From contig JBAMJV010003047.1 in NCBI GenBank assembly GCA_037951105.1, positions 1 to 64,000 of the forward strand: a DNA stretch of 64,000 nucleotides, in the 5' to 3' direction. The notes beneath the pieces were generated by a model. That model made no database searches and was not told where the DNA came from. It saw only the letters and a list, made by a program, of their open reading frames with translations. The DNA comes from Echinarachnius parma (Eukaryota; Echinodermata; Echinoidea; Clypeasteroida; Echinarachniidae). The number at the start of each line of letters is the position of its first letter. Position 1 is the first letter of the stretch. Shown one piece after another: positions 3,305 through 64,000 of this stretch. Made by a program: the position numbers and the translations under genes.

Positions 3305-18728
<15,424 letters not shown>

Positions 18729-28309: not shown

Positions 28310-31300
28310 GTAGGTAAACTTCAGCAGCGTAGACATGTTACAACTAGTATAAGTGACATTATAATATATAATTATAATATTTAAATAGTTCAACATTCTT
28401 GAGTTTGAACTTTGAAACTGAACTAAAATGCATTTTGTCATTTTGGGCAATCTCTAATACTATTAAATTTGATTCATGACTCATGACTCATGTCCAATTC
28501 TCTTTTTGTGCGTTAACCTAACCAGGCGCCGTGCGAAGTACGGCGCCTGGCCGCGACGTCGCTCGAAATCTTGTGGGTACATTTTTGTAGATGTGCGACG
28601 AGGTAAAAAATCGCCTTTACTTACAAAATTATTTGAATTTGTTTCGCTCCGAAGTACCTTTAGTTATTGAACTTATCGGACGTTGCATATAATTTGCTAA
28701 AAAAGAAGGATAACTTACCTCAAATTGATGATTTATTACGGTAGTCCTGGTTAGAATCCGGCTTTGTCTTTGATCGCTGCAATGATGACGTCACCTCAAA
28801 ACTTGTCGGCAATGCATGCTGGGATAGGAGGTATTCGATATTCCGCTCGTATAAAGTGGCGATCGGTCAAAGACAAAGCCGGATTCTAACAAGGACTACC
28901 GTAATAAATCATCAATTTGAGGTAAGTTATCCTTCTTTTTTAGCAAATTATATGCAATGTCCGATAAGTTCAATAACTAAAGGTACTTCGGAGCGAAACA
29001 AATTCAAATAATTTTGTAAGTAAAGGCGATTTTTTACCTCCTCGCACATCTACAAAAATGTACCCGCAAGATTTCGAGCGACATCGCGTCACAGCCCTGT
29101 GCTACGCACAGGGCTGATCACAGTTATTTGTGCGTGTGCATTTTGTAATGCAAAGCTCAAAATTAGCACAAGTCCGCTAGGGCCTAGGCCTAGGCCACTA
29201 AATAATTAGCTTCAGGCCACCACATTTCATTCAAGCTTATATTCCACTTGTCCGAATGGGCATCCAAATATAAAACATAATTGTTAATGTTTTTCTTTGT
29301 TCGGGGCCACCAGATTCAGCTTTCGAGCCTCTAGAATGTGAACATATTTTTACTTGCCTGACCACCAGGCCATAAGGCAAGACATTTCTAGCTTTGCATG
29401 CATAATGGCATGAAGCACATTTACCCGCATCGTAAAAGAGTCTACAAAAATGTTATGTGTTTATGTGATCCACAATTCATATACTTTGATAATAATTACA
29501 GACTCTGTTGTTTTGAAGACCGCAAAATGTAGAACAAAATTTATTATTTCCCGTCCGTTTTCCTTACCGATGCGTCCTAAAACACAGCGTTCAACTGTTG
29601 AACGATGCAGTTTACGAATGGGCGGTATACTTATCTCCAGCGTATTAACATGATTGTGTGTAAATGGTCCAGCTGACTGGACCATCATGCCACATATACA
29701 GACATTACAATACTGTACTGTGCGCTCTGCATTGCATTTGCAATGCACGGGTACCGATAGTCGAACGACCGTTATCAATGCATTAAGAGTACACAGTTTG
29801 CTCCGATGATATTGCCTGTCACTCAGGCGATTAAATGGTCATACCATTGTATGACCCTTTACAAAGTAGATGTGGCTCATGTGATGATGATGCTGCAGAG
29901 AATTGTAGGCGAAACGCGACTTCGTTGTCGTGACTGAAGAGCCCAGAAGTATCGCGATGTCGATGATGAAAATTGCATGTGGAGATGAATAACGAGGCGG
30001 AACAGTGGCGGATCTACGGGGGGTTTAGGGGGTTTAAACCCCCCCCCCCCCCCCCCCTTGGGCTGCCAAGTGAAAATGTGATGTGCATAGAAAAACGCCA
30101 TCATGTGTCCAGACCCACACAGTATCCGCATCGTCATTGGGTCAAACCCCCCCCCCCCCTTAGCAAAAAGCTAGATCCGCCCCTGCGGAATAACGATGCG
30201 CGATTGGAGGATTGAATGCACGTGGTATAAAACATGATGGAAATGTACTGAGCTACGAGAAACTGGAAATGACCGGATCGCTTAATGAAGGTCGGGGTCA
30301 AGATAAGATTTTGCATGAATAAAATAAAGGCGTGAGTACGAGACACCGGTCAGTACAATATACAAAGTTTAGACTAGCTCTTTATGATTGATATATTGCA
30401 GGACTATTCATTGGTTCTTGGACATTATATTCAACCATTGTTGTTGTGAATAAATTAATGTTTTTGTTTTTTCTTATTTAAATTAATGTAGGATTATGAT
30501 GGGTCAGCGGCCCTATTGGTGGGTGCAGGAGAGCCCACTGTATATTGGACAGGAGCGACCTTTCCTCAAACAGTTTCACTTGACCTGTGAAACTGGCCCA
30601 GGTAATTTAATATTTTACCCTGTTCCCTTAGAGAGTCTTATATTCCCATAGACTTTGTACATAATAGCCCTCCAGGTTTCCATAGGCAAGGGGTTCAAGA
30701 TGTTCAGGGGCTACATATGCAATAGCACTCTGAAATCAGGGATGCAGGTTTTCTGGCAAAGCCCTGAATTCAGGCCCTGGTAATTTCTTTTTGTCATTTC
30801 GATCATTTGCTTCTGCATAAATCGCTGTGGGATTTGTTTTGCATAATTCATGGGCCAAATCATTTTATTCACCAAATATGTTAATTAAGAATGTTAGAGT
30901 TAGGTTTCATAGGGCTGTGGATTAATATTTATTCAGGGCTCGACACTAGCACTTGCCCACTTGCCTGCTTGCCCAGGGCAAGTGAAAATTGGTGTCATAA
31001 ATGTCATAAATGTCATAAATGTCATAAATTGTCTGGTTTGCTAACTAAATAATTGTTCAACTATGAGAGAACAATGTAATTTCTTACATCTAAATCTCAT
31101 CAAGAAGTAAGAGGGCAAGTAAATTTTATATTGGGGCAAGTAAATTTTCAAAATGTATGATTTTACTTGCCTGAAAGGGCGAGTAGAACAAAATTAGTGT
31201 GGAGGCTTGATTTATTATTCAGAAAATTTTCTCTCATTTTTTCAAATATTGGCTAATTGATGAATATTGTAGAAATATTGCAAAATCTGAACCCAAAAAA

Positions 31301-34138: not shown

Positions 34139-34660
34139 CCCCCGTCACACCTACTACGCTCCTTCTACGCTCCTAATCCCCATTGATAAATTTGGCTAGA
34201 GCAGCGTTCATTGTTCTCTATCGTTATCTACACTTTTTCGCCGATCACGCGGCGCTCCCACTGTGACCAAAGCGCAGGGCATGAGAGTAGTACGGTCTCC
34301 GAGAACGAGTTGGCATGTCAGTGGGGAATGAATGGGAAGATTAACTCACATGCGTGAAAAGATAACCTCCCATGCATGAACAGACAATAGCTCCCTGAAC
34401 AAAAGGCCAGATCGTAGGACATCCACGTTTGCTTTGGACATGCCCAAAACAATCGTAGAGGTTCCACGAGCTGAATTTTTGTTCAGGGGGGTATTATCTG
34501 TTCATGCATGGGAGGTTATCTTTTCACGCATGTGAGATAATCTTCCCATTCATTCCCCATTGAACAAAATACATTTTGCAGATTTATTCCAGTGCTTGTG
34601 ATCAGCTATTGTCCGAGAGTAGTAGAAGCGTAGCTCGGTGTGACGGCACCATTAGGAACT
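34139..34660. mobile_element. Nested MITE downstream of G6PC
   Basis: Outer ends CCGTCACACCTACTACGCTC and, reversed from the right, GCCGTCACACCGAGCTACGC. An inner hairpin at about 34330-34560 has arms containing TCCCATGCATGAACAGA and its mirror. It lies about 100 bases after the G6PC stop, so it is inside the likely 3' UTR. Confidence 0.8.
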
Positions 34661-45826: not shown

Positions 45827-45984
45827 CTAGAGAAGTCTATCTAAATGCATCTGTTGTAAGGTGGCTTGGAATGAAATCACACAAAAGAAGATGTTTATGT
45901 GATAAACATTATGAAACACTTGAGAATTCAAGGGATTATTGCCTTTTTTTATCTTTACACGATGTAAATATACACATCTGGGCA

Positions 45985-46125
45985 TTCTCTACCAAAGCGT
46001 GCCCACGACTTGGCATGCATGACAAAAAGAACTGATGCTCTATAGTTGCAATTTGTATAGAGCATCAGTTCTTTTAGTAATGCATGCCAATTCGTGGGCA
46101 CGGTTTGGTAGAGAATACCCACACA
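45985..46125. repeat. Palindromic element (copy B)
   Basis: GCATTCTCTACCAAAGCGTG at the left is mirrored by GGTTTGGTAGAGAATACC at the right. The inner AAAGAACTGATGCTCTATA is mirrored around GTTGCAATTT. Related to 5087-5218. Confidence 0.82.
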
Positions 46126-55949: not shown

Positions 55950-56770
55950 GCAGAGCTCTTTACATTTGTTGAAACACATCATACTTTGATACTAATGATA
56001 TATAATTGGTTACTATTTGTAATTTCTTGCTGCAATTTACTTTAATATTTATGTGTGGTATATTCTGCTCTATTTTCAAGAGATAAAACTCTCTGAAAAC
56101 CAGTTAAATATTTGCAGTTTTTATAAAACACACAAACCCCTAAATGTGTATAGAACAATACCAATTGTTCATTACCCTAGGAAACAATGGCTGCTCAAAT
56201 CTCAATCAATCTTAACCACATCCCTTTGTTTGCTAACCACTCCAGTCAGTGTGTTTGTATCACTACAGATAGCTGCCAAGGTCAGAGTCACCTTCTGCAT
56301 TGTATTTCACATTTTATTCAAATACATCATTCAAAATTATACGAACAGAAGACCAAGACCTGCGTTTGATCTGAAATCTTGTATTCCTACAGGTGCATAA
56401 AGAAAGAATACCAATATTTGTTCCTAATCAGGACAACCACCACCCTTCTCCTTCTTAGGACTATCCCAAGAACTGAAGAAAGAATGTGCAGTCCCTATCA
56501 GGATTATCTCACCTCTAACCACATATGCACTGTATGTCTGACTTAATTTGTAGTTTCTTAGCTTTGAGTCTTCATCCCCCACCCAAACAACCAAACCAAA
56601 GACAAGACCATGCCACAAATGTTTCAAGAACTTCTAGTAGTCCGGCAGCCAAGGAGCTATACCTCGTTTTGTTGGAGTAAGTTTTTTTTTTGATGGATTC
56701 TCTTTCATTAGGCATTGCTGATGACCAAACAGAAAACTGGAACTTTGTCAGTGTTGAGCAATTTAAGATA
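55950..56770. other. Spacer, no gene recognised
   Basis: The plus-strand open frame at 56053-56400 (115 residues) has no recognisable domain and AT-rich codons. I treat it as chance. Confidence 0.5.
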
Positions 56771-57870
56771 TGGCAAAAAACAAAATGGCCGCCAAAATAG
56801 CCTATTTTGAGTAAAATTTGGACTATTTCATAATACATTACGAAATATCAGCAGAGAAGTGTGCTTGTAATTCACGAAGACCATTGTCAAGACATTCCTG
56901 ATCATCAAACATAAACATAGACATAATTTGAATATTTTTCATTTAATTTTTTGCTAATTTGCATACTCAAAATGGCGGATAAAAACAAAATGGCCGCCAA
57001 ATAGCCTATTTTGAATTATTTCATAATACATTACGAAATATTGGCAGAGTAGGATGATTGTAATTCACGAATACCATTGTTAATACATTCCTGATGATCA
57101 TACATGAACATAGACATGATTTTAATTTTATCCATTTTATTTGTGGCTAATTTGCATATTCAAAATGGCGGACAAAAGACAAAATGGCCGCCAAAATAGC
57201 CTATTTTGAGTGAAATTTGAATGATTTCATAATACATTATGAAATATTGTCAGATTTGTGTGCTTGTGATTCACAAAGACCATTGTCAACACATTCCTGA
57301 TGAACAGAGACATAATTTGAATATTTTCCATTTAATTTTTTGCTAATTTGCATATTCAAAATGGCGGATAAGAAACAAAATGGCCGCCAAATAGCCTATT
57401 TGGAGTAAAATTTGTATCATTTCATAGTACATTACGAAATATTGGCAGAGTAGGATGCTTGTAATTCAAGAAAGACAATTGTTAATACATTGCTGATGAT
57501 CATACATGAACATAGACATGATTTGAATATTATACATTTTATTTTTGGCTAATTTGCATATTTAAAATGGCGGACAAAAGACAAAATGGCAACCAAGCAA
57601 AATAGCCTATTTTGACTAACATTTGAATGATTTCATAATACATTATGAAATATTGTCAGAGTCGTGTGCTTGTAATTCACGAAGACCATTGTCAACAGAT
57701 TCCTGATGAACATTGACATAATTTGAATATTTTCCATTTTATTTTTTTCTAATTTGCATATTCAAAATGGCGAATAAAAAGAAAATGGCCGCCCAAAAGG
57801 CTATTTTGAGTAAAATTTGAATTATTTCATAATACATTACGAAATATTGGCAGAGTGTGGGGGGGAGGGT
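56770..57870. repeat. Tandem satellite array, unit about 200 bp, six copies
   Basis: The word AAAATGGCCGCCA and its variants recurs at about 56782, 56986, 57181, 57377, 57584 and 57782, with the same following sequence (AATAGCCTATTTTGAGTAAA, CATAATACATTACGAAATAT, ATTCCTGATGA, TTTGCATATTCAAAATGGCG). Copies differ by point changes and small indels. Confidence 0.93.
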
Positions 57871-58340
57871 GTGGGAGTGGGGTGTCCCACCTGCCACGGT
57901 AGGGAACTTTTGCATTTTTTGACTTGAAACTGTGCAATCTGGTGCATACCTGGAAAGGAAGTTCTGTCTTGGCGACATGTAGTATAATGTGCGTTAGTGT
58001 GTCATCATCGTCATAACCAGAAGAGATTATGATTGGTTCATGAAGAAAAACAAAAATGCGCCCCTGGAATACATGTACTATTCTCAAAGTGACATATTCA
58101 GTTCAAACAGTGCATCAAAAGCATTTTTTTTATGACATAGCAACATGAACCTTGTTTTCCAGACGTATACAAGACCGATTTCCGAGGGAGCAAAATGAAA
58201 ACCGAGAGAGGGAAAGGTGATGGGAGGGTGTGATGGTTGGTGGGTGCACGGTAAAGGTGTTTTTGCAATGTTTTTCATTGAAATGATGCAATCTTGTGCA
58301 TACTTGGGAAGGAAAATTTTACTTGACATGAAGTAAAATC
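57860..58340. repeat. Two direct units following the satellite
   Basis: TGCAATCTGGTGCATACCTG (about 57935) and TGCAATCTTGTGCATACTTG (about 58287) lie in two similar G-rich blocks about 350 bases apart. No gene. Confidence 0.7.
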
Positions 58341-58399
58341 TGTCTTTTCTTGTCTACAGAAAGACTCTTTTCTTTCAATCAATGTTATCGATTTAGATA

Positions 58400-59060
58400 A
58401 AAGCCATGATTTGAATTTATTTGGGGGGGGGGGGGGAAGTGCCCCCCCCCCCCCACCAGTACGCCATGTGACATTGTCGTAGCCTTAGATTGTCCATAGC
58501 ATGATGTAATGAGTGATGTTGCATCTTTCATCGCGTCGGCCATATCTGCATCCATGTTTCCAATCGATGGCAAAAGGAACCCATTGTTCTGCCGCAGCAC
58601 TTTTAGTAAAGTTCCTTTGCCAACTCCAAAATGTGCACCAACAGTATCACAACCTATCAGTGCGTGACCTGCTAACATAGAAGGGATGATATGTCTCTGT
58701 GTCTGTCCACTGTGGCATATAAATCAATGTCTTTGATTGGCGACTCGATTATCAAGGGTGACCGAAGGCCTGGCTTGTGGTATAAATGAAGTAGAAGAGC
58801 ATACACATCTGTGTCGTCTGCAAGCAACCTGATGGATCTGCCTTCATCTGCCAGCATGATAGCCTGCTGGACTGCCTGCACAATAATCACATCAGCCTCC
58901 CCATGAGATGTGGCCATATCGTGCCGTTGGATTGGAAAACCATCTGGACAACAGGAGTTTCATATTGGCTGGTGATCACAAGCTTGTGTTTTGTGATGAA
59001 ACCTGCATCGCTTTGCAGATGTTGTCAACTAATGTTTATCATCTGTTTCTTGTTCTGTGT
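58400..59060 (-). pseudogene. Decayed FEN1/PIN-like nuclease ORF of a dispersed family
   Basis: On the minus strand, in order: HKLVITSQYETPVVQM (about 58990), SHGEADVIIVQAVQQA (58912), LLADDTDVYALLLHLYHK and, after a frame break near 58680, GHALIGCDTVGAHFGVGKG. The spacing of E-E/GEAD, D-TDV and GCDT-x-GxGK matches the acidic residues and helix-hairpin region of FEN1/XPG nucleases (EAEA, DxD, GCDY...GIGPK). Frame breaks near 58920 and 58680 and truncation before a poly-G/C hairpin at 58424-58454 make it non-functional. The family name is unknown to me; the nuclease relation is inference. Confidence 0.6.
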
Positions 59061-59104
59061 GACTGTCAGAGTCAGTTTCTGAGATGGAAGAGGTGAAGTC
59101 CCAG

Positions 59105-60620
59105 GACGAAATTCCAGTTAAAATTTTAATTGGGACGATGAATGTAACAACCTCTACAACGACTTCCTCGATGGCGAACGCGGCGATGAAGCAGCCTCTA
59201 CGGCAACCCTTGTAAATACCTGCCTAGACAACAAACGCAGAGAGAGATAGGAGGAGACAGTCCAAGGAATTGACTTCATCTTCTCCAGCAGACTGGCCTG
59301 GAAAACGCCAATCACCTCACTGGCAAAAGTCCCAAGCCAAAACAATGCCCCGTGACCGCTAACTCAATCGCAGAACAGCTCCTCGAGAACGGTTGCTTCA
59401 AAGACGCAGATAAGAACCATACTCGCCATATCAAACAAGAAACCTCCAAACTCTGGCAGGCCCCAGGAGTAGATGGACTCCTGTCATCGTAGATGGACTC
59501 CTGTGGAAGTGGTGTGGCAAGATCGGTAGAGCGCGTGCTTCCTGATCATGAAACCCTGAGTTCGAACCCTGCTCACTCCGTTTGTCCTTCAGCAAGGCAT
59601 TTTATCCACATTGCTGCTCTCTACCCAGGTGTATAAATGGGTACCTGGTCTGGTGGAAATTAGCTTGGTGCTAGGGTTGCCCGCCGATAGTATGCTCCCC
59701 GGGGAGTTGAGAATGTGTACAAGATAATTGTGCAGGTCTGAACTGTATCATATGACCAGGGGTAATAATGCGCTTAGAGGCTGTTCTGCATTAGGCGCTA
59801 TATAAGTGCGATATATTATTATCACCCTTTTCTCCCGATGAGATCGCCACTGCCATCAAACACTTAGGTTTCTTCTGCACTGCGGACCAAAATACCTGGA
59901 ATGGCTCCGCCTATTTTTCTCAACATGCCTCACCCACAAGTCCATCCCCAAGATATGGCGCAAAGCAACCATCATCGCCTTACCCAAGCCAAACAAGCCC
60001 TTGGACAACCCCAAGAATAACAGACCAATCTCTCTCCTCTGCATCCCCTTTAAGCTACTCGAAAGACTCCTCCTAGCCCAGCTGGAACCAATCGTCGATC
60101 CGCAACTTCCGGACGAGCAAGCAGGTTTCCGCCGAGGACGCAGCACCGTCCAACGAGTAGTCTTGCTCACCAACGACATCAAGAGCAGCTTTGGGAGAGG
60201 ACACAAGGCTGACGCCGTCCTGGTAGACCTAACTGGAGCCTACAACACTGTGTGGCACCAGGGCCTCACTCTGAAGCTCCTCAGATAGTCCCAGACCGCC
60301 ACCTACTAGGATTCATCTCCAGCATCTTATCTAATCGCAGCTTTGTCCTGAAGACCAGCAACGGACAGTCCAGTCGTCCCCTCTTCCCTCGTCGCTCTTC
60401 AAAATCTACATCAGTGACATGCCCAAGACTGCCGCACGACAGTACGGCTATGCAGACGACCTCGCTCTCTTCCACTCGGACAAAGACTGGTCAAAAGATG
60501 AAGACGCCTTAACATCCGACATGGCCAAGATCGCGAACTACCTGAATAGTCCGGGAGCATGTCCACAGAAAAAAAGTCCCGTGGGATTTTTTGTATGAAA
60601 GCAAACCACCTATCCAAATG
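59105..60620 (+). pseudogene. CR1/Jockey-type LINE reverse transcriptase fragment
   Basis: Shifting plus-strand frames read SWKTPITSLAK-like sequence and SIAEQLLENGCFKDADKNH (about 59375), then RT blocks NNRPISLLCIPFKLLERLLL (60018), DEQAGFRRGRSTVQRVVLLT, ADAVLVDLTGAYNTVWHQGL (about 60210) and, in another frame, QYGYADDLALFHSDKDW (60438), the YADD catalytic box. There is no endonuclease domain and there are several frame breaks. A SINE splits it at about 59505-59822. It is a dead 5'- and 3'-truncated copy. Confidence 0.85.
59505..59822 (+). mobile_element. tRNA-derived SINE inserted in the LINE
   Basis: The tRNA-like head has TGGCAAGATCGGTAGAGCGC (A-box region) and GAGTTCGAACCC (B box). The body follows with GGGTACCTGGTCTGGTGG and ends GGCGCTATATAAGTGCGATA plus TATTATTAT. 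It interrupts the LINE reading between GVDG and the segment resuming LFSPDEIATAIKHL. The 16-base GTAGATGGACTCCTGT is doubled just before the insertion. Confidence 0.8.
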
Positions 60621-60738
60621 TCTCAAGGGCACCCCAAGGAACAATAAAAAACATGTTGGCAGTCTGGTATCCCTGGCAGATGATAATTATGAAGGATAAA
60701 AAGAAAACAACATATTTGTACTTAATATAACCTATTTT

Positions 60739-60925
60739 TTAGGGGTAGGTTAATGTTGGTATTGAGGGCACCTCATAAAAACAATATTTTTGTGTGGTAA
60801 TGACACATTTAGTGTAGAATCAACAACACGAATATAATGTAAACCATAGAACAAACTTTATTTGGTTGAAATCGGTTCATAAACGGCTGAAATATCCATA
60901 AATATATCGTTCATGATATTTGTTG
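60739..60925 (+). repeat. Partial copy of the TTAA-flanked MITE family
   Basis: TTGGTATTGAGGGCACCTCA, GTGGTAATGACACATTTAGT and ATCGGTTCATAAACGGCTGA match the interior of 55386-55948. Confidence 0.7.
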
Positions 60926-61279
60926 GAAACCCACTTTTATTTGATAATTCAAGAAAATACGATGAAATCCGTATACATTCTGGGAAATGTACCATAAATT
61001 GTCTAAACTTGAATGATTATATTAACCAAACGTCACATTCACTATGTCATGATTCATATTTGTTTATCAAAATAATTATGGTCTCTCGATTTAATTTGAA
61101 ACGGGCACTTATTCCTGTCACACCTACATGGTGCATCCCTTACAGAAAACTTAGCGCAGAGTCTAGCTACACTGCACGCTATAATATACATGCGTTTGTT
61201 TACTTCCGTTCATGTTTCATCAAGATTCAGCTGTATTCAATTCCAGTATACTAATCATAATAAGACTCATATATTTCGC

Positions 61280-64000
61280 AGTAGACAACGTTGACTTCAC
61301 GGAAGACACTCCCGATGGAAAGCGCATCCTGCATGGGACAGCAATGGCCATTTACCAACGATCCCAGCATGACAATGAGACACCTCGACTAAAACTCCCC
61401 CAGCCAGATGTGAAAGGCACCACAAATGATCTTATGACCAAGCTGCTTGACTACCAAAAGCCATCTCTCAAACCACAAAGCCCCGTCTATGCCTCGTTCA
61501 GCCTCAAAAAGGATCCCCCACAACCTTCAGATGGTTCCCTTCCAGAGGTTGCCTGGCTGATGGGTCCGACCCTGGTTAGGTCCCATCATGCGGACGGTCA
61601 GAGAAGAGGCAGTCCTACTCCAGGGGGGGGGGGGGGGGGCACTCATGTATAATGTAAGACGGGTATGTGCCGCTTAAAAGAACCCCTTTTCACACCCGAT
61701 CTCAGCTCTAAAGATTTTCAAACATTGCCGCTCCATAGACCCCCGGTATGACTTGGCTAGGTAGTCGAGTAGCGCCAAGTCCATTCTTCTCTTCTAGTTC
61801 GGCTCCATAGACCCCCGGAATGACTTGGCTATGTATTTTACTAGCGCCAAGTCCATTATTCTCTTCTAGTTCGGCTCCTTGGACCACCATTTGAGCCTTT
61901 TTGAGGGTTTCCGTACGTCTCTGGTAGCTCCAAAGTCTATGTATTTTGTAGTTTTAAGTCTGCTCCTTAGACCCCTTAACTCCCGTTTCAGGGTTTTTGT
62001 AGTTTCAAAGACTCTATATTTTGTGCTTGTAGTCGGCTCTTCAGACCCCCATTTCAGAGTTCTGTGAGGCACACCCTGTCAAAAAATAATTCGAGTGACA
62101 TTCTGTGCTGTAGGGCAAGACCTAGCACTTGAACACATCAGCCGCTCCATGAAGGTAGCTGGGGCACTTGTGGGTATAACCCAGAATGTCTATACTCGCT
62201 GTAAGTTCATCTTAATCTCACCAGATTGCCAGACTTACCGACGAATCCTGTGACATCGCTGGATTTGCATCGCCTGCTCAGAGGCGTCACCATGCCCTCT
62301 CAGCTGCAGTGGTTACAAGGCAAGATAAAACATTGAATCGCTCACGTCCACTATTGAAATATTCACAAACCCATTCGTAGAAAAAAGCTGTGACCTATTC
62401 AACATGGTGACAAAAGCAGTCATGCCTGAGAATGTCGAGAGTGATATGTGCGCGGAAAGCGCATGGGCCAGAAGTTGTTTGAGGAATTTGTCACCAACCG
62501 AATATACCAACAGAATAGGAAGCTTCAGACCCGGAAAACAACTGGGAAACGAGTGAAAGTCAATACTGTCTGGAGACAAGGTAGTGGAGCTCAAAGAAGA
62601 TCATAAACTGTTCACCCGGATGTTGTTGGTGTCGAAGTCCAGACCCAGCATAAACCTGGAGGAAGCGATCGGCAGACCCGAGTTGTCAGTAGTATCAAGG
62701 TCAATGTTTGCCACTAATGGTACAATTCTGCACTGCAACCCTGTAGAGCAGCCTGATGGTCATCCTTGAGAAGCTCCCAAGAAGTGTCACTGATGCGGAA
62801 AATCCACTTCCTGACAATAGCACGGAACCTGAAAACATACCTGCAATGATAAAAGTGGCCTTTGTCGATGCCATGGCAGATGTCCAGTCAATACAAAAGT
62901 CTGACAACCTTACATACTGTAACCAGCTGGCTGATCAGTTCACGCATCGTATCCTCGAGAGATACAGTGAGTGATACCGATGAAGTCCATCTGGTCTTTG
63001 ATCGATGCGCTGTTCCTACCTCTCTAAAGGGTGCCACACATGACAGAAGGCAGGATGATCAGCCAGTCATCGCCTACCACATAACAGATGTTACAAACAT
63101 AGCAAAGGTCCCACTGAAACGACTCACGTGAAAACAAAGATAGAGCGACTTGCTACCTTGCCGAGAAGATGCTGGTGAAGGCTCATGCAGAATCAAATGG
63201 TTGTCACAGTGCCGAGCTACGCACAAAAATGTCAGCCACCTTCAAAGTCAGCAGGAAGAGGCAGACACAAAACTCATCCTGCATGCTGCTGATGCAACTG
63301 CTAGTGGGGCTTCCATCATCAACATTCATTCGCCCAATACAGATGTCTTCGTTCTGGCAATCCGGAGGTATCCAAATGTATGCAGCAACATCTACTTCGT
63401 AACTGGAATAGGTACATGTACGAAGCGAAGAGTCATACCCCTGTGACCAATCTACGAAGCCATGGGACGACAAAAGCTGCTGCTCTACCAGGATTGCATG
63501 CATTTAGTGGAGCCGACAACACAGAGGGCTTTGCTGGCAAGGGCAAACCTGCATTCTGGAAGATATTTCGTGAGACATGGGATTACAAGGAGATATTTGC
63601 TCTGGCAAGTCTAGGAACCATGCCATGGCCGAATGATGGTCTCGAAGAGTTCCTCTTCAATTTGGTCTACGTCCCAGTGAGAAAAAGTACCAAGGTGGAA
63701 AAGCTGAAATGGTGGATCTTCACAAAGAAACAGGCCGAGTCAGATAGGTTGGCGCCTCCACAAGACAAGCAATGTTGAGGGCACACTACCATTGACACTG
63801 TTCCGAACCAAGAGGTACCATCTCCACATGATTATGGCCGGAGCTTCGAAGTCGATGTTTGGGTTCCTGTGATGACTAAGCAACAGCCTGCACCAAACGC
63901 GGTCATCCAGCTGGTGAATTGCGGATGTACAAAGGTCCAAATGTGACAATGCGAGGTGCTTCTGTCGCAAGGCAGGACTCAACTGCACAGAATTATGCGC
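61280..64000 (+). pseudogene. Decayed multi-domain ORF: FEN1/PIN-like core plus Cys-rich C-terminus
   Basis: Plus-strand pieces in changing frames: KRILHGTAMAIYQRSQHDNE (61320) and YASFSLKKDPPQPSD; CDLFNMVTKAVMPENVES (62391); VHLVFDRCAVPTSLKGATHD and VIAYHITDVTNIAKVPLK (about 62988-63120); EEADTKLILHAADATASGAS and SPNTDVFVLAIRRYPN (63258-63370); LPGLHAFSGADNTEGFAGKG (about 63489); EKLKWWIFTKKQAESDRLAP (63699); then NCGCTK and, one frame over, CDNARCFCRKAGLNC (63915-63990). EEAD, TDV and GADN-x-GxxGKGK are spaced like FEN1 catalytic blocks. At least four frame breaks and a minisatellite insertion (61730-62070) inactivate it. The 3' end is cut by the window edge. I recall this architecture as multicopy in marine invertebrate genomes but cannot name it. 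Confidence 0.65.
61730..62070 (+). repeat. Minisatellite, unit about 72-88 bp
   Basis: GGCTCCATAGACCCCCGG recurs at 61730 and 61802; diverged starts (GCTCCTTGGACC, GCTCCTTAGACC, GGCTCTTCAGACC) follow at about 61874, 61962 and 62036. The first two units share CGCCAAGTCCATTNTTCTCT. It interrupts the decayed nuclease-like ORF. Confidence 0.83.

Follow-up and report, generated by a model that had tools for sequence, protein, structure and literature searches.

In AcademX transposons, an XPG nuclease is encoded together with a Cys8 zinc finger, and P and hAT transposons leave target-site duplications (TSDs) of 8 bp. To our knowledge, no FEN1-like domain is present in the P element, Hermes, RAG1, or Transib. 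PMC10045372 gives TSDs of 9 to 10 bp for AcademH and 3 to 4 bp for AcademX and ties them to the encoded helicase and nuclease, respectively; it was the nearest text in our literature search, in which no publication describing a FEN1/XPG-type domain within transposons surfaced. Here, we analyzed a 64,000-nucleotide stretch (the window) of the echinoid Echinarachnius parma, part of contig JBAMJV010003047.1 (C3046) in the 1.2-Gb assembly GCA_037951105.1, and sought its relatives in the same genome. Two nuclease-like features near the window end, on opposite strands, are transposon remains, one nested in the other. We consider it very likely that both are decayed DNA transposons of the cut-and-paste kind, with AcademX as the most likely type, and that their better-preserved relatives encode a protein of ~1,500 amino acids (aa) combining a transposase with a FEN1/EXO1-like nuclease.

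The preliminary description of this DNA had placed two FEN1/PIN-like nuclease remnants at 58400..64000. These limits were too narrow, the elements covering contig positions 56638-67879 and 60547-64965. Their features in the window are as follows:

56638..64000 (contig 56638-67879, past the window end), minus strand: minus-strand element, 11,242 bp counting the insertions nested in it, flanked on each side by the TSD TAG
56774..57857, no strand: ~200-bp tandem repeat array adjoining the left tip of the minus-strand element
58457..59099, minus strand: frame-broken nuclease-region remnant of the minus-strand element, 89% at the nucleotide level to positions 4626-5273 of relative L024
58616..58669, minus strand: GCDT...GVGK motif, GHALIGCDTVGAHFGVGK, last acid and helix-hairpin-helix-like stretch
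58795..58824, minus strand: DTDV motif, LADDTDVYAL
58873..58905, minus strand: GEAD motif (EEAD in the family), HGEADVIIVQA
60547..64000 (contig 60547-64965, past the window end), plus strand: plus-strand element, 4,419 bp, TSD GAA on both sides
60577..61074, no strand: left terminal inverted repeat of the plus-strand element (aligned part), ~500 bp, 82% to contig 64454-64945
61284..61322, plus strand: DNVDFTEDTPDGK, remnant of the motif with the first candidate transposase acid
62119..62154, plus strand: DLALEHISRSMK, remnant of the motif with the candidate transposase Glu (DxxxE)
62852..62887, plus strand: KVAFVDAMADVQ, strand 1 of the nuclease domain, including an Asp
62985..63053, plus strand: VHLVFDR...SLKGATHDRRQ, second acid of the nuclease, with a basic stretch
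63252..63287, plus strand: QEEADTKLILHA, nuclease motif
63330..63359, plus strand: SPNTDVFVLA, nuclease motif
63497..63547, plus strand: HAFSGADNTEGFAGKGK, nuclease motif
63917..63986, plus strand: Cys-rich CXC-like tail in two frames, NCGCTK at 63917-63934 and CDNARCFCRKAGLNC at 63942-63986

The minus-strand element has the tip TAGTCCGGCAGCC, and the plus-strand element has the tips TAGTCCGGGAGCATG / TAGTCCAGGAGCATG. For the latter, two other loci (L020 and L028) have the same surroundings without the element; at each, the two matches share the 3 bases of the duplication, which makes it a direct empty site. TSDs of 3 bp were found in all eight insertions with both ends identified: GAA and TAG in the window; TTA (C3065), CTA (C6843), GTT (C2582), and TAT (C2005) in further insertions; and TAT and AAA in a third family represented by C158 (17030-25384) and C2697, with the tips TAGACTGTAGGCCAT / TAGTCGGTAGGCCAT. 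This count leaves out C3808, whose outer tip was not found, and C6133, a repeat of the C2005 insertion. The two third-family copies are 100% identical over 1,531 bp and 1,702 bp towards their two ends and differ in the length of a repeat stretch; among the matches listed, the family reached an equal genome-search score at six loci, with a 1,524-aa frame in five of them and a 1,170-aa frame in one. Moreover, the L029 copy of the minus-strand family has a matching ~200-bp array at its opposite end in inverted orientation (6626-8138), giving a foldback-like terminal structure. The mapping of termini, proposed beforehand as a check, thereby yielded ends and TSDs for eight insertions, and inverted termini, 3-bp TSDs, and empty sites bear out the earlier suggestion that the nuclease is transposon encoded.

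All the motifs named in the preliminary description were located in the order given there on both strands, in two copies that are both frame broken; in the plus-strand remnant, the motifs are spread over different frames, as are the halves of the Cys tail. The remnants are distantly alike, as had been noted: within the 64 kb, they matched each other reciprocally by tblastn over the GCDT/GxGK stretch with 30% identity and E values of 0.008 and 0.039 according to direction. A chance resemblance was ruled out by this reciprocal match together with the many matches in the same genome, 87 for the plus-strand piece and 68 for the minus-strand piece at E ≤ 1e-3. In these searches, only the best candidates were scored, and family match numbers are lower bounds, though duplicated contigs inflate them. 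With the nuclease domain of L011 as the query, 971 first-look candidates were obtained (best 100 scored, 115 matches listed), and with L010, 1,103 (best 95 scored, 105 matches listed). The family, suggested at first to be large and poorly described, is probably the known AcademX lineage.

Neither window copy retains an open frame for a ~1,500-aa protein, and the protein plan was read from better-preserved relatives. Three of them (L009, L010, and L011) have a single long frame each, L012 and L024 have two frames each, and frames of 1,486 to 1,651 aa without internal stops were found at 19 listed loci, measured from stop to stop. The protein runs from N-terminal Cys/His pairs through a middle region and the nuclease motifs, in the order DG / V(F/W)D.Y / EEAD / DTDV / HAxTGCD...GxGK, to a Cys-rich tail. 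The relative of the minus-strand remnant, L024, has the same plan over two overlapping frames, with both the Cys/His part at the N terminus and the Cys tail. Because L024 shares the full plan, the remnants in the window represent two diverged members of a single family, and the tail, at first ascribed to one of the two, is indeed present in the plus-strand remnant but belongs to the minus-strand relative as well. A frame in L067 (C11920) has the nuclease acids (EETD, SPDSDV, and GCDST...GIGK) without a Cys-rich tail.

Structure prediction of a homologue, compared with PIN/FEN1 folds, had been set beforehand as the test of a FEN1-type fold. The predicted fold of the nuclease region of L011, an open-frame homologue, agrees, resembling EXO1, FEN1, XRN, and XPG with 10 to 17% identity over aligned residues in the rows listed. 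The likeness extends to the order of the acids and to a GxGK stretch like a helix-hairpin-helix; we take the acids and GxGK to correspond to FEN1 residues and to its helix-hairpin-helix. Residues E153, D155, D179, D181, and D241 are conserved in 19/19 aligned relatives, D21 in 18/18, and D64 in 17/18 of those with a letter (E in L015), and the acids fall among the nine columns that are invariant across these 19 diverse relatives. In SPNTDVFVLA of the plus-strand remnant, Asn replaces the first Asp of DTD, which is invariant in the 19. By prediction, the relatives carry a FEN1/EXO1-type 5' nuclease domain whose acids are under constraint. Sequence searches with Pfam, PHROGs, and the PDB did not recognize it, and neither XPG_N nor XPG_I matched in eight members at E ≤ 10 (HMMER filters drop most matches above 0.1) or in five long frames at E ≤ 1. 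A YacP match (E 0.5) was not significant. Unlike EXO1, FEN1, XPG, and XRN, the window family adds a transposase-like core before the nuclease and a CXC-like tail after it. The tail has the CxC...CxC...C spacing of the Tesmin/TSO1 CXC domain (TCR, PF03638); profile matches are weak, in 3/8 members with a best E of 0.089 (11.1 bits in L010 against a cut-off of 23.5), and the structure model has low confidence there.

Going beyond the preliminary description, the structure models place a DDE-transposase-like core in the same protein. Its predicted fold, in which a long helical insertion accompanies RNase-H-like strands, resembled the transposases of the P element, Hermes (hAT), RAG1, and Transib in the VIA comparison, and this fold with its candidate acids agrees with the DDD/E transposase of Academ and AcademX. 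The likeness to these four is at the level of fold, and the P-element match reflects a shared transposase fold, not membership. DUF6589 (PF20231) gave matches below its Pfam cut-off of 27 bits in the middle region of L009 (22.7 bits, E 4.8e-5) and L011 (16.8 bits, E 2.9e-3); the Pfam scan found none in L010 or in either L012 frame. Foldseek by itself did not match the core to transposases, which ranked first only in the second look with VIA. The VIA output also warns about helical models, which slightly lowers our confidence, still high, in the proposed explanation and makes another superfamily slightly more probable.

It is unlikely that the elements belong to another superfamily of DNA transposons, P-like or unnamed, in which a 5' nuclease became fused to a DDE transposase independently: P elements make 8-bp duplications, whereas the window family has 3-bp TSDs in 8/8 insertions. 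Because these 3-bp TSDs and the nuclease fold fit the AcademX side of the distinction drawn in PMC10045372, we file the elements as probably new members of the AcademX lineage of the Academ superfamily, a comparison made with AcademX by description. By that same source, AcademH differs in its 9- to 10-bp TSDs, and no helicase family, unlike in AcademH, was found by a Pfam scan (E ≤ 1) of five frames from four loci. The window family shares with AcademX (Repbase; Kojima) the 3-bp TSDs, inverted termini, DDE-fold transposase, and nuclease domain; the minus-strand family differs in having ~200-bp tandem arrays at either end, which may be a local trait.

That these are not transposons at all but pseudogenes of a host repair gene of the FEN1/EXO1/asteroid type is highly improbable. 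Such an origin would account for the FEN1-like fold, and around the long frames of L009 to L013 and L024, only chance-like pairs were obtained when inverted termini with TSDs were sought. Inverted termini, 3-bp duplications, copies at many loci, and fusion to a transposase-fold region speak against it, however, and L020 and L028, as empty sites, refute it for the plus-strand window copy. Equally improbable is an origin of the gene family in a virus or virus-like element (Polinton or giant virus). The large frames with several domains and the wide spread would suit it, but the termini and the 3-bp TSDs are in keeping with a cut-and-paste transposon, and no relative appeared among viral contigs in one single-protein and two motif scans, which used exact patterns of limited sensitivity and did not cover viral hallmark genes. 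As nuclease activity is here a prediction, the domain might instead be a catalytically dead module recognizing branched or nicked transposon ends; we give this little credence, since its acids lie among the nine invariant columns, which would be unusual for a dead enzyme.

The decay of the window copies is itself shared. Relative to L024, four indels (-7, +9, -9, and +2) are common to the window and to all 10 decayed minus-strand copies fetched, which represent eight loci besides the window (L016/L029 and L017/L030 being overlapping cuts), or seven insertions if C2005 and C6133 are the same. L025 is identical to L024 at these sites, with none of the four present. The insertion in C2005 and C6133 (L029 and L030) has identical flanks on the two contigs, marking them as duplicated or allelic in the assembly, and copy counts are inflated accordingly. 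In the plus-strand family, the window has 11 frame-shifting indels relative to the 456-aa open frame of L014, of which L002 shares nine, L003, L004, and L005 seven each, L007 four, L008 three, and L015 none. Because sister copies share identical lesions, it is probable that intact relatives mobilized the broken copies in trans after these had decayed.

Other features of the window include a retrotransposon fragment within the minus-strand element:

59842..60288, plus strand: reverse-transcriptase fragment (RVT_1, E 9.3e-13)

This piece, between the two remnants, was the only one of ten window pieces with a Pfam match above the cut-off. The plus-strand element sits 259 bp beyond it, within the minus-strand element, and the intervening sequence appears from its translation to belong to the same retrotransposon. 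Also inside the minus-strand element, 59500-59830 presumably resembles a tRNA-derived short interspersed element, with a box-like GTTCGAACC and a tail ending in TATTATTAT; ARAGORN found no tRNA in it, and Rfam and ARAGORN gave no matches overall. A 72-bp tandem repeat (2.2 copies) lies at 61730-61885 inside the plus-strand element. Imperfect palindromes of ~145 to 570 bp (blastn self-complementary pairs, 85 to 89%) occur at 16889-17162, 34318-34563, 45979-46121, 51-275, and 28531-29109 and are possibly other foldback elements or elements like miniature inverted-repeat transposable elements. A ~600-bp inverted copy pair occupies 531-1112 and 1323-1921 (93%, blastn).

We propose a model in which one ~1,500-aa protein begins with Cys/His pairs at its N terminus, continues with a DDE-transposase-like core (including a helical insertion) and then a 5' nuclease like FEN1/EXO1, and ends in a CXC-like tail. 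The Cys regions at its two ends would bind DNA and recognize the element ends, the DDE site would cut these ends and join them to target DNA with a 3-nucleotide stagger, and the FEN1-like site would trim or cut intermediates with 5' ends or flaps, either during excision or once insertion has occurred. In Tn7, TnsA works beside TnsB, dividing strand cleavage. By analogy, we tentatively raise the possibility, held with more doubt than conviction, that a single polypeptide carries two unrelated cutting sites, with the 3' ends cut and joined by the DDE site and the 5' strand of the transposon ends cut or trimmed by the FEN1/EXO1-like one, which would set the 3-bp stagger.

Altogether, the window is explained by nested mobile elements, and the shared lesions of the broken copies point to spread after decay. 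A structural identity is gained for proteins numerous in this genome and missed by Pfam, with a predicted EXO1/FEN1-type nuclease and a P-element-like transposase core in one chain, and what a repair-type nuclease does during cut-and-paste transposition thereby becomes directly testable. If the tentative division of strand cleavage is true, it would represent a eukaryotic transposition pathway with a repair-type flap nuclease built into the transposase.
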